Notes under the pieces: generated by a model | Databases searched by the model: none | Seen by the model: only the letters and a program-made list of their open reading frames with translations | What the model was told of the DNA's origin: nothing | NCBI GenBank assembly: GCA_029863525.1 | Contig: JAOTVL010000025.1 | Location: 1 to 35,307, forward strand | Source of the DNA: Gemmatimonadota bacterium | GTDB lineage: Bacteria > Gemmatimonadota > Gemmatimonadetes > Longimicrobiales > Gaopeijiaceae | DNA length: 35,307 nucleotides | Direction of reading: 5' to 3' | Part shown: in pieces, positions 2 to 10,646 of the stretch | How positions within the stretch are numbered: the stretch's first letter is position 1 | How the letters are laid out: every line of letters begins with the position of its first letter | Made by a program: the position numbers and the translations under genes

Positions 2-1987
2 AAGGAGGCCCGTGACGCACGCCATTTGGACCAGGTCGCCTTGGAGCGGGTCCAAGACCTGCTTCCTCTGAAACGCCAGCTGGAACGGATCGACGCGCTT
101 CGGCGAGCCGGTGGGCCGCGCTCGGACCTGGTCGAGCTCCCTGAAGATCTCGTCGGCTATCGCGACGATCTCGAGACACGGCTTGGGATTCTGCGGCGGG
201 ACATCGCCGCGATCGACGCCGACCTCATCGAACCCGACGCGGCCGTCGCCCGCTTCGACGAAGCCTCCGCCCACCTCATCGAGCACCGTGACGCGATCGC
301 AGCCTTCGCCACCCGATCGGCCGGCGGCGCCGACGACCGTGTACGGCTGACAGACGTCCGGGTGCGACGCGAAGAGTCCGAGCTCGAGATCGCCGCCGCC
401 GCGGACAACCTGCTGACCGCCCCCCCGACGGAGTCGGTCTTGGACGCGGTAGAAGCCGTATCCGTGGAGCTACTTCGCGACCGCGTCGCCCGGCTCGACA
501 GGTCGTCCCGCGGTCGGGCACCGGAGGCGACCGCCGCAGTCGAGTCCGGGGGTTCGACGGCCCGCGGACGCGCGGTCGCGCTCGTCGCGGCCGGTGCCGC
601 GCTCCTGGCCTGGGGTCTGCTCGGTGGCCCAGTCGTCGCCGCCGCCGCGGGAGCGGCATGCCTCGGCGTGGGGGTCACCCTCGCCCTGCTTCGTCCGGAC
701 CGGAGCATCACCCCACCGGCGAGCCGGGGACCCACGCTGGACCCGATCCCCGAGCTGCGGCGCGAGATAGAGCAGATGGTCTCCGGCCTTCCCGTGCGCA
801 GCGAGTACCTCGATCCACCTGCGACTCCGTTGCCCACCGCGATCGAGCGTCTCCAGAAGGCCATCGCTGAGGCACGGGCATTCGCAAGGACCGAGCAGGG
901 GCTTGCGGCTCGGATCGCGGCGTTGGATGACGAGGCGCTGCGCCTGCGGGCCCTGCTCGGGCGCGGATCCGAACAGGACAGCGCCGAGCTCGCCCTCACC
1001 CTCGACCGCGAGGTGCGCGAGGCCGAACGAATCCGAGACGCGGCCGAGGTGGCGGAGCGAGAGCGGGCGAGGGTCTTACGCGCACGTGCCACGGGGGTCG
1101 CGGACCTCACCGAGGTCGAAGACCGGATCGCGGCCATCGAGGGGCGCATCTGGCAACTCGCCGCGGGGGCCGCCGGTGGACGCCCCATCGATGTCCTCCA
1201 CAAGCGGTTGGAGGCCCACGCGCGCGCCGATCGGATCGAAGAGGAGTTACAGAATGCCCACCCGGACCTGACCGACCGGGTCGAGCAGATTCGGAGCGCC
1301 GAGGCCCATGGCCTGGCGTGGACCATCGACGACGAGGAGCTCGCGGAGCGCAAACGCCGGCTCGAGGAGCTGGGCGAGACGATCGAGAAGCTGATCGGTA
1401 GGGGCGAAGCGCTGGAGCGGGACATTGCGCACTTTCGCGATCGCGAGACGGTAGACACCGTCGATAGCGAGATCGAGAGCCTCAGGGAGGAAGAGGCCCG
1501 ACTCGTCAAAGAGCGCGACCGGAAGTGGCTCCTCGCCAAGCTCATCCGGGAAGCCGACCGTCGGTTCCGAGAGGAGCACCAGCCTGACCTGTTGCGGCGG
1601 GCCTCGGCGTATCTCGAGCGGCTGACTGGGGGGCGCTACGACCGCCTTCTCGTGGACGAAGAGAGCGACGGGGACCTTTTTCAGCTCCTCGGGCCTCAAC
1701 TCCCCGCACCGGTGGCGCTCGCTCGCCCGATTTCGACCGGTACGCTCGAGCAGGCCTACCTGAGTCTACGCCTCGCGATCGTCGATCACCTCGATCCGAG
1801 CGAGGACCGGCTCCCGCTCTTCGTCGACGAAGCCTTCGTGAACTGGGACGACGATCGCAGAGGACGAGGGCTCGAGGCGCTGTCGGAGGTATCTCGCACG
1901 AGGCAGGTATTCGCATTCACCTGCCACCCGGAAATGGCGGACGAGTTGCGTCGGCGGGGCGCGTGCGTGATTCGCTTGTGGCCCTGA
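2..1987 (+). CDS. YhaN/SbcC-like coiled-coil ATPase, C-terminal part (5' end outside window)
   Basis: The frame is open from base 2, so the gene enters from the left and its N-terminal Walker A half is missing; TTG at 26 is only the first possible start codon inside the window. The visible ~660 residues are long Glu/Arg/Ala coiled coils interrupted by a hydrophobic, Ala/Gly/Val-rich double segment (around residues 180-222 counted from base 26). The end carries ABC-type ATPase motifs: STGTLEQAYLSLRLA (signature-like), LPLFVDEAFVNWD (Walker B and D-loop) and a switch histidine in FTCHPEM. This arrangement, including a membrane-like hairpin inside the coiled coil, resembles B. subtilis YhaN, whose family is linked to DNA repair together with an SbcD-like nuclease. 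A nuclease partner would be expected upstream; this is inference. The 3' end overlaps the next gene by 25 bp. Confidence 0.85.
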   Translation, partial: KEARDARHLDQVALERVQDLLPLKRQLERIDALRRAGGPRSDLVELPEDLVGYRDDLETRLGILRRDIAAIDADLIEPDAAVARFDEASAHLIEHRDAIAAFATRSAGGADDRVRLTDVRVRREESELEIAAAADNLLTAPPTESVLDAVEAVSVELLRDRVARLDRSSRGRAPEATAAVESGGSTARGRAVALVAAGAALLAWGLLGGPVVAAAAGAACLGVGVTLALLRPDRSITPPASRGPTLDPIPELRREIEQMVSGLPVRSEYLDPPATPLPTAIERLQKAIAEARAFARTEQGLAARIAALDDEALRLRALLGRGSEQDSAELALTLDREVREAERIRDAAEVAERERARVLRARATGVADLTEVEDRIAAIEGRIWQLAAGAAGGRPIDVLHKRLEAHARADRIEEELQNAHPDLTDRVEQIRSAEAHGLAWTIDDEELAERKRRLEELGETIEKLIGRGEALERDIAHFRDRETVDTVDSEIESLREEEARLVKERDRKWLLAKLIREADRRFREEHQPDLLRRASAYLERLTGGRYDRLLVDEESDGDLFQLLGPQLPAPVALARPISTGTLEQAYLSLRLAIVDHLDPSEDRLPLFVDEAFVNWDDDRRGRGLEALSEVSRTRQVFAFTCHPEMADELRRRGACVIRLWP

Positions 1988-9125: not shown

Positions 9126-9590
9126 CTAGCTCTCGACGAACTCTGCCGTCCACCCGATCTCGACCGAGTCCTTGATGGATTGCGCGGTCGGGCACTTGTC
9201 CACGTGCGTGGCCAAGGCCCGATCGACCTTCTCACGATCCGCCCCCTCCGGCAGCCGAATCGTGTAATGCACGTCGATCCGGGTCAGCAAAATGATCCGG
9301 TCCACCACCTCGTTCGTGCCTTCGGCCGTGCAGCTGAGGTCACCGTCCGGAACTGAAATCCCGCGCACCTCCAGTGCGCCGTTGAGCGTTCCGAGTAGTC
9401 AGCCCGCGGCCGCGGCCACGAGATAATCCACGGGCAGCGGCAAGTTGGGTTGGGAGTCGAGGCCGTAGTGCGCCTTTACGGGACCGTGCACACCGAAGTC
9501 GATGGTGGTCCCGTCCTCCAGGGTGCCGCGCCGATGAAGGCCGTCGATCTTTTCGACCGTGGCCTTCGCCACGTAGAACGGTTTACTCAT
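9126..9590 (-). CDS. OsmC-family peroxidase with in-frame UGA (probable selenocysteine) at the catalytic position
   Basis: Read from ATG at 9590, the frame gives 63 residues ending PVDYLVAAAAG, then TGA at 9399-9401, then continues in the same frame as LLGTLNGALEVRGI up to the stop at 9126, for 154 residues in all. OsmC proteins carry their peroxidatic Cys in exactly this context (ELLxAAxxxC followed by a helix, then GI). The resolving-type Cys is intact at residue 133 in HVDKCPTAQSI. UGA at residue 64 therefore replaces the catalytic Cys, best read as selenocysteine. A GGGAGGAG ribosome site precedes the ATG. The start overlaps the upstream small gene by 8 nt. The expected role is selenol-based reduction of organic hydroperoxides in the cytoplasm. 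A sequencing error or nonsense mutation is the alternative, but the downstream hairpin argues against it. Selenoprotein OsmC-like proteins are known from marine metagenomes. Confidence 0.85.
9347..9394 (-). promoter_or_regulatory. candidate bacterial SECIS element (selenocysteine insertion hairpin)
   Basis: On the minus-strand transcript, just 3' of the UGA at 9401-9399, CGGAAC (9393-9388) can pair with GUUCCG (9353-9348), extendable by a U-G wobble. GCGCAC (9379-9374) pairs perfectly with GUGCGC (9368-9363), closing a UGGAG loop (9373-9369). An internal loop of 8 and 9 nt separates the helices. The loop begins 25 nt after the UGA and has G at its second position, matching the known bacterial pattern (loop roughly 16-37 nt downstream with a G among its first two bases). 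The folding was done by eye. Confidence 0.65.
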
Positions 9591-9792
9591 CCGAGTACTC
9601 CTCCCAAGGGTCTGGCTCCCCGCGCTCGAAGCCTTCGCACCGAAGCACGGGCAGAGGTGGGTAACGGGGAAAACGGTTGTCGGTCTTGGACCGCGCACAA
9701 AGGTAAAAGCGCGACCCGCGACGGTTGCCGGTAAGACGGTGGTGCGCGCAGATGCTGCAGAGGCCCACTCGATGATCGGGCTCGGAGCTCAC
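9583..9792 (-). CDS. small conserved four-cysteine protein
   Basis: A 69-residue protein starting at GTG 9792, whose start overlaps the TGA of the upstream pgeF-like gene (GTGA arrangement). It ends in TAA within an 8-nt overlap with the OsmC start. Cysteines lie at 12 and 15 (LCSICAHH), 32 (FYLCARS) and 52 (VLRCEGFE), with the linking sequence RGSRFYLC and RFPRYPPLPVLRC. I recognise this as a short, widespread, uncharacterised bacterial family; the Cys spacing suggests a structural zinc site (inference). No membrane segment or signal is present. The tight coupling on both sides implies that it is made together with both neighbours. It is easily missed because longer spurious frames cover the region. 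Confidence 0.75.
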   Translation of the reverse strand: MSSEPDHRVGLCSICAHHRLTGNRRGSRFYLCARSKTDNRFPRYPPLPVLRCEGFERGEPDPWEEYSDE

Positions 9793-10646
9793 GGTCGAAT
9801 CCCGATGTATCCGACGTGCCGATGGGCATCCCCCGCCCGATGCGAATAGAGATCCGACTCGCTGCAGCGCGTGCAGTGCGCGGATACCGTGAGGTGCCCC
9901 GGCAGCACGCCCGCGCGGACCGCGCGGGCGGCGAGCACACCGCGGAGGTCGAGAGGCTCGGGCTGGTGCGGTACTTCTTGGTCGAGTGCCCGGAACACCT
10001 CCGGACCGACCTCGTAGCAGCTGCCGCAGATCGACGGGCCCAGGTGCACGTGGAGGCCCTCCGGTGGGGTCCCGTACTTCGCATGCATCAACGCCAGCCC
10101 TCGCTCGAGCACCCCCGCGGCCGCGCCTCGCCACCCCGCATGGATCGCTGCGACCGCGCGTCGCGCATCATCGACGGCGAAGATCGGCACGCAATCAGCG
10201 GTCGTGACCGCGAGGAGGGTGCCGGGCTGGTCCGTCATGTGTCCGTCACACGCGTCGACGAGCACGAGTGCCGTCCTACCTAGGCCGAGCGGAGCGTCGC
10301 GGCCGTGCTCACCCGACGGGATGTGATCCTCACCCAACGAGATGTGACGCTCGCCCGACTGACCGTCCCAGACCCGAACGGTCGAGCCGTGGACCTGTTC
10401 GGCATGGACCAACGTCGTCATACCGGTGGCTTTTCCGAGGGCCAACCAATGCTCCTCGACCTCGTCCCGCGGGCGCCCACCCGAGAAGAGTCCCAGATCG
10501 AACGGAACGGGCGCCGACCCTCTCGTCGTGGTGCCTTGGACCAGCCAGGCATAGCGCTCCACCCATTCCTGGTGGACCAGGGCCGGCGGCCGACGGGTCG
10601 GCGTCTCCGAGATGGTCGACACGGCTCCCATAGATGGCGAGGGCAT
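9789..10646 (-). CDS. pgeF: YfiH/LACC1-like polyphenol oxidase family protein (purine nucleoside phosphorylase type)
   Basis: A 285-residue member of the PF02578 (Cu-oxidase_4, YfiH/LACC1) family. The active-site triad is visible: His86 in AEQVHG, Cys152 in TTADCVPIF and His169 in AAIHAGWRG, followed by LGPSICGSCYEVG. Characterised relatives act on purine nucleosides by phosphorolysis or deamination, or edit peptidoglycan precursors, rather than being true laccases. Compared with ordinary members, there is an extra segment of roughly 25-30 residues between VHG and the DACDGHMTD region (about 98-125), rich in Gly and acidic residues. The start ATG at 10646 has no good ribosome site, and ATG at 10631 is an alternative. 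It is the first gene of the coupled pgeF-like / Cys4 / OsmC unit and is divergent from sucA. Confidence 0.88.
   Translation of the reverse strand: MPSPSMGAVSTISETPTRRPPALVHQEWVERYAWLVQGTTTRGSAPVPFDLGLFSGGRPRDEVEEHWLALGKATGMTTLVHAEQVHGSTVRVWDGQSGERHISLGEDHIPSGEHGRDAPLGLGRTALVLVDACDGHMTDQPGTLLAVTTADCVPIFAVDDARRAVAAIHAGWRGAAAGVLERGLALMHAKYGTPPEGLHVHLGPSICGSCYEVGPEVFRALDQEVPHQPEPLDLRGVLAARAVRAGVLPGHLTVSAHCTRCSESDLYSHRAGDAHRHVGYIGIRP

Follow-up and report, generated by a model that had tools for sequence, protein, structure and literature searches.

A predicted selenocysteine-containing OsmC-fold protein from an apparently Sec-only subfamily of Gemmatimonadota

Described OsmC-like selenoproteins and the position of this locus

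OsmC selenoproteins were already on record in 2005 (PMC1088965). In the accessible portion of that Sargasso Sea survey, 3 OsmC-like sequences with the motif UxxT were described, Cys homologues were required by the search, and bacterial selenoprotein genes were given a stem-loop directly 3' of the UGA whose small apical loop contains a G as a feature. OsmC-like selenoproteins are listed once in the available part of a 2026 review (PMC13188914), and 'gemmatimonad' is absent from its main text; neither OsmC nor 'gemmatimonad' is mentioned in the available part of deep-Sep (PMC12013277). Literature on OsmC or Gemmatimonad combined with selenoprotein or selenocysteine was judged by titles, and no title among those listed concerned the clade described here.

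The window (the whole stretch of 35,307 nucleotides that was analyzed) almost certainly encodes, at 9590-9126 of the minus strand, a selenoprotein of OsmC fold, with a predicted Sec64, SECIS-guided insertion, a proposed redox cycle and membership of an apparently Sec-only clade, designated A/B. This reading is based on sequence comparison. With the Sargasso Sea proteins and NCBIfam model NF041052 (OsmC_like_Se), the clade shares the OsmC domain, the replacement of the active-site Cys by Sec, and a stem-loop 3' of the UGA. The locus could thus be a plain member of that family in a new host, a view favoured by the shared Pfam domain and by Sec at a comparable site. Against this, the window protein scored 30.2 bits with NF041052 and did not reach the cut-off of 95, and four clade A/B relatives gave 22.4-28.4 bits in three cases and no match in the fourth, i.e., at most 30.2 bits in the five tested. 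Across 148 genomes, 116 had a match to the model at E 1e-3 and one (G053) was over the cut-off; the protein of this sole passer has Cys, in the motif CYMT (= CxxT), consistent with the published UxxT spacing, whereas clade A/B has Thr at +4 (ULLGT), unlike UxxT. The Sargasso Sea/NF041052 proteins also have Cys homologues (by the requirement of the search), and none were found for clade A/B. Simple membership of the known family was therefore considered unlikely. The preliminary description had held that OsmC-like selenoproteins were already described, with which the accessible text of the Sargasso Sea survey (PMC1088965) agrees, and that this gene looked undescribed, which fits the model score and the title search. 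The kind is already known, and clade A/B is apparently a distinct, undescribed subfamily, set apart by motif and model score.

The gene, its neighbours and the Sec machinery

Translation of the minus strand from 9590 to 9126 gave M...GULLGTLNGALEVRGI...KCPTA... up to the stop, with a single TGA at residue 64 (9401-9399). The standard ORF listing breaks the gene into two fragments (9126-9368 and 9399-9698). The C-terminal fragment by itself was over the Pfam OsmC cut-off (PF02566; 31 bits vs. 27.5), the N-terminal fragment by itself had no Pfam match, and the read-through protein scored 53.6 bits over residues 51-146 (computed with C in place of U). In the alignment to the family profile, the active-site Cys of Thermus OsmC (1ukk_A) falls opposite residue 64 and its second Cys opposite residue 133; 2onf_A likewise has Cys opposite Sec64. 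A Shine-Dalgarno-like stretch, GGGAGGAG, lies immediately 5' of ATG 9590. What had been claimed of the gene from its letters was borne out at each of these points: one in-frame TGA at the catalytic Cys of OsmC, homology running on past it to 9126, a second active-site Cys133, a ribosome site before the start, and two fragments under simple gene calling. Feature coordinates are given in Table 1.

Table 1. Features of the Sec-OsmC locus, with positions in the window
Feature	Position	Strand	Details
pgeF/YfiH-like gene (Cu-oxidase_4)	9789..10646	-	First gene of an apparent three-gene operon
Small CxxC...C protein (LCSICAHHRLTGNRRGSRFYLC...)	9583..9792	-	69 aa; GTG 9792 start chosen by analyst
Sec-OsmC gene, clade A	9126..9590	-	ATG 9590, TAG stop 9128-9126; 154 aa; predicted Sec64
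In-frame UGA, predicted Sec codon 64	9399..9401	-	Aligned with OsmC active-site Cys
Predicted SECIS apical hairpin	9363..9379	-	+22..27 pair with +33..38 (U of UGA = 0); 6 pairs; loop UGGAG
Cys133 codon, second redox residue	9192..9194	-	In the KCPTA motif; no variation among 47 aligned proteins

The osmC gene forms an apparent operon with pgeF and the gene of the small CxxC protein, which overlap by 4 bases; the latter overlaps osmC by 8. The small protein had no Pfam match. Of 63 distinct clade A genes, 31 had a homologue of it encoded upstream and 27 had pgeF there (window gene included in both counts), and each was seen in 0/12 of clade B; these counts include several flanks too short to judge. 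The sets of distinct genes are defined in the next section.

A search of the genome for selA, selB, selC and selD had been proposed, with absence of any Sec machinery named as a ground for rejection, and all four were present above their cut-offs: selA (529.5 bits), selD (385.1 bits), tRNA-Sec (70.3 bits, anticodon tca) and selB (313.8 bits; the match extends to profile position 343, and the reading frame continues roughly to the end of the contig). No tRNA was found in the window by ARAGORN. The SelD of this genome (L196, G000:C55:24569-25492) itself has an in-frame UGA, in the motif GAGUACK.

Among the 148 genomes, selB was over the cut-off in 101 and tRNA-Sec in 100. In the 78 genomes with a TGA-bearing OsmC match (TGA-OsmC), selB and/or tRNA-Sec was found in 75 and both in 68; the three with neither (G009, G019 and G022) are drafts, 81-83% complete. 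Machinery was found without TGA-OsmC in 31 genomes, and 39 had none of the three (co-occurrence, Fisher P = 4.6e-13 over the 148 genomes, kinship ignored). One genome of the same genus (G008, 87% complete) had selB and tRNA-Sec and no OsmC match in either the 148- or the 395-genome search.

Reassignment of UGA throughout the genome, for example to Trp instead of Sec, would likewise leave the frame open, as would any such code. This was rejected as extremely improbable, because TGA is a normal stop in 3 of the 6 window genes checked (it terminates pgeF, the 2-oxoglutarate dehydrogenase E1 gene and a BNR-repeat gene); in addition, both 1ukk_A and 2onf_A have Cys at this position, and selA, selB, selC and selD are all present.

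Conservation of the UGA and of the RNA 3' of it

Matches to the protein were found in 91 of the 148 genomes (own genome included), and in 78 at least one match had one TGA. In the remaining 13 only matches without a stop were seen, at 29.2 bits at most, and all matches above 30 bits in this set carried one TGA; here and in the 395-genome search, stops were counted per match and not by alignment column. Columns were checked for 108 chosen loci, including 12 clade B rows and 8 no-stop rows. From 107 of these an OsmC-like protein was obtained, and 100 of the proteins carry U within [LM]xGT[LF]; the other 7 were distant Cys OsmC proteins of the same class (28-35% identity over the matched stretch), whose Cys aligns with the Sec, and at locus L101 no OsmC-like match was found by this method. 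Removal of identical coding sequences reduced the 100 to 75 distinct genes (63 of clade A, 12 of clade B), which were selected for UGA presence and are therefore informative on its surroundings, not on the UGA itself.

In the wider phylum search, 158/395 Gemmatimonadota genomes had a match. The matches listed reached down to E ~2e-54, and among them TGA was present in every row; each genome with a best E <1e-12 had a TGA row in one of the searches. When 20 of these Gemmatimonadota genomes were searched again, all full-length matches (at least 162.7 bits) had TGA, and no stop-free full-gene match exceeded 44 bits. Genome G214 gave two pieces, apparently of one split gene, at 88.2 bits with TGA and 64.6 bits without, the latter ending just 5' of the Sec codon. 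An additional TAG or TAA lay within the matched range in G064, G369, G297 and G070 (among matches listed).

Relatives were also sought by other routes. A total of 41 loci, close relatives only (identity up to 88%), were found in named genomes, with record titles of Gemmatimonadetes, Gemmatimonadota, Gemmatimonadales or Longimicrobiales, plus 'Bacterium HR33' and two 'Deltaproteobacteria'. The latter two (L070 and L071) come from one bin with identical coding sequence, and this bin was taken as presumably mislabelled. No relatives of the Sec-OsmC were found in the viral contigs and plasmids searched.

The preliminary description had asked whether the UGA is conserved in relatives or whether they have random stops in this gene: TGA was present in 78/148 genomes, the U lay at the same column in 100/107 proteins from the loci checked, and random stops were not seen. 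This bears on a sequencing error or a decaying pseudogene, either of which might be suspected in a draft genome (221 contigs, 3.62 Mb, 83% complete) in which the ORF listing shows two fragments. That other assemblies carry the TGA as well argues against an error; furthermore, clade A proteins are 51-89% identical to the window protein on both sides of the UGA column (47-row alignment), and synonymous codons right after the UGA are almost frozen. Error and pseudogene were both rejected on these grounds as highly improbable.

The RNA 3' of the UGA was compared across the 75 distinct genes. All six pairs of the predicted hairpin were kept in 74/75, the exception being L084 (clade B), and the apical loop was UGGAG in 64, UGGAA in 9, UGGAU in 1 and UGGCA in 1. 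The clade A/B genes thus have a predicted post-UGA stem-loop with a G in its small apical loop, of the described bacterial kind. Compensatory changes occurred: pair 26-34 was A-U in 55/63 clade A genes and G-C in 7/63 of clade A and 11/12 of clade B, and pair 25-35 changed from C-G to U-A in L112 (clade A) and, at a locus added later, in L174 (clade B). Cells altered on both sides numbered 19, whereas 500 shuffles averaged 4.9 and never exceeded 10 (kinship ignored). In further rows, which partially overlap the first 75-gene set, six pairs were present in 36/37, not in L172 (clade B); the U-bearing loci L179 and L187 escaped the pattern. Both L084 (G141) and L172 (G280) keep the UGA without forming the usual hairpin register, and they have in common a GGAGCCCUGGAAGCC stretch that may form an alternative stem-loop.

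Codon choice within the hairpin was close to uniform in clade A: Gly71 was GGC in 63/63, Leu73 CTG in 63/63, Arg76 CGC in 62/63, and Ala72 GCA in 55/62 and GCG in 7/62. At the remaining conserved positions listed for these four amino acids, 4-6 codons apiece were in use, and some two-codon residues outside the hairpin were also fairly fixed (e.g., Lys132, AAG in 57/60). These near-frozen synonymous codons are most naturally read as selection acting at the RNA level, and this codon choice is the strongest sign for the predicted SECIS. The folding energy of the hairpin in the window sequence by itself was unremarkable (z = -0.98) and the Rfam scan of the window gave no match, so that support for the hairpin comes from comparison and not from a curated family.

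Fold, paralogues and proposed chemistry

With the OsmC/Ohr proteins (PF02566), clade A/B shares the fold, a helix with the catalytic residue, and a second Cys on a later helix; it differs in having Sec for Cys and in the replacement of the Glu at -10. An AlphaFold2 model (47-row alignment, C for U) had a pLDDT of 96.2 and a pTM of 0.89, and the best PDB matches of this predicted fold in Foldseek were OsmC/Ohr proteins (the top 14 rows spanned TM 0.66-0.79). The best structural match was a putative OsmC of Thermoplasma; 2onf_A gave TM 0.79 and E. coli OsmC (1qwi_A) TM 0.72, and identity to the solved OsmC/Ohr structures listed was 12-25%. Residues invariant in the 47 aligned rows, which were selected for UGA presence, were Y6, G17, R20, G33, H35, D55, U64, G67, T68, G71, L73, R76, G91, Y109, H129, C133 and P134, and both redox positions of OsmC/Ohr (64 and 133) are among them. 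As G71, L73 and R76 lie within the hairpin, RNA constraint adds to their conservation at the protein level.

A second Sec-OsmC is present in the same genome (L083, G000:C106:11686-12114); it belongs to clade B, is 36% identical to the window protein and has a hairpin of the same type. A tree was built from 58 proteins (19 of clade A, 19 of clade B, 18 Cys rows and 2 rows of a further type, X) with midpoint rooting, the Cys rows being a sample from the same class of bacteria. Single origins were supported for A (99/98) and B (95/87). The joint A+B branch (94/87) was narrowly below the program's star limit and contained no Cys row; the 18 Cys rows and 2 type X Sec rows fell outside it. Cys members near clade A/B were sought in the 395 Gemmatimonadota genomes and none were seen among the matches listed, with the pieces of the split G214 gene left out of this tally; none were found when 20 of these genomes were searched again. 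Together, A and B would make up a distinct OsmC subfamily of Gemmatimonadota with two paralogous forms, apparently Sec-only. It might further be suggested, at somewhat less than even confidence, that fixation of Sec preceded the duplication into A and B, that the UGA and a common SECIS hairpin were retained in both lines, that loss of Sec decoding led to loss of the gene and not to a Sec-to-Cys change, and that the chemistry is impossible with Cys.

Type X comprises L193 (G140:C118:2470-4847) and L194 (G123:C87:460616-462987), with the motifs GLGAUTSMT and ALGSUMSMT at the active-site UGA. It is like clade A/B in having the UGA at the OsmC active-site position and in its bacterial class, and unlike it in belonging to another OsmC subfamily, among Cys members (five-row branch, 98/92). 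Type X would seem to represent a separate recruitment of Sec within this bacterial class.

OsmC/Ohr proteins work by a two-residue redox cycle, with a peroxidatic and a resolving residue. OsmC/Ohr peroxidases use a catalytic Arg and Glu, the Glu lying ten residues before the Cys. Arg20, invariant in the 47 aligned rows, is a candidate for that Arg. In the Sec proteins, position -10 from Sec was Val in 63/63 clade A genes and Leu or Ile in 12/12 of clade B, and -9 was Asp in 75/75 distinct genes; Glu was at both -10 and -9 in 11/11 Cys OsmC proteins compared. Since the Glu at -10 is replaced and -9 is Asp, substrate and mechanism may differ from those of Ohr.

Sec insertion at residue 64 is predicted, and the enzyme activity is inferred. 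In the proposed mechanism, SelB with Sec-tRNA-Sec would bind the hairpin 22-38 nt 3' of the UGA and direct Sec to residue 64, a step for which the comparative evidence is strong. By analogy with OsmC/Ohr, the Sec64 selenolate would attack a hydroperoxide or similar oxidised substrate to give a selenenic acid, which Cys133 would resolve to a selenenylsulfide; a dithiol would then reduce the latter. The protein could instead be an OsmC-fold Sec protein that is not a peroxidase, and that, e.g., reduces another oxidised substrate or takes part in selenium or sulfur transfer. The residues at -10 and -9 in all 75 distinct genes point that way, as does the putative OsmC of Thermoplasma as best structural match, whereas both OsmC/Ohr redox positions are retained in the 47 aligned members. 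This option was regarded as somewhat unlikely. A peroxidase role for the Sec-bearing OsmC fold is the putative assignment retained here.

With this locus, Gemmatimonadota gains a well-supported selenoprotein subfamily; among the literature titles listed, none dealt with selenoproteins of the phylum, and the gene is one that ordinary ORF calling breaks in two. Sec-only families could be missed by searches for Sec/Cys pairs, such as the accessible text of the Sargasso Sea survey (PMC1088965) describes as required. The preliminary description had not mentioned the predicted SECIS hairpin, the second Sec-OsmC paralogue of the genome or the apparent absence of Cys members from the lineage, of which the last is the more unusual; as no Cys counterpart is apparent, the question of why some enzymes retain costly Sec becomes testable.
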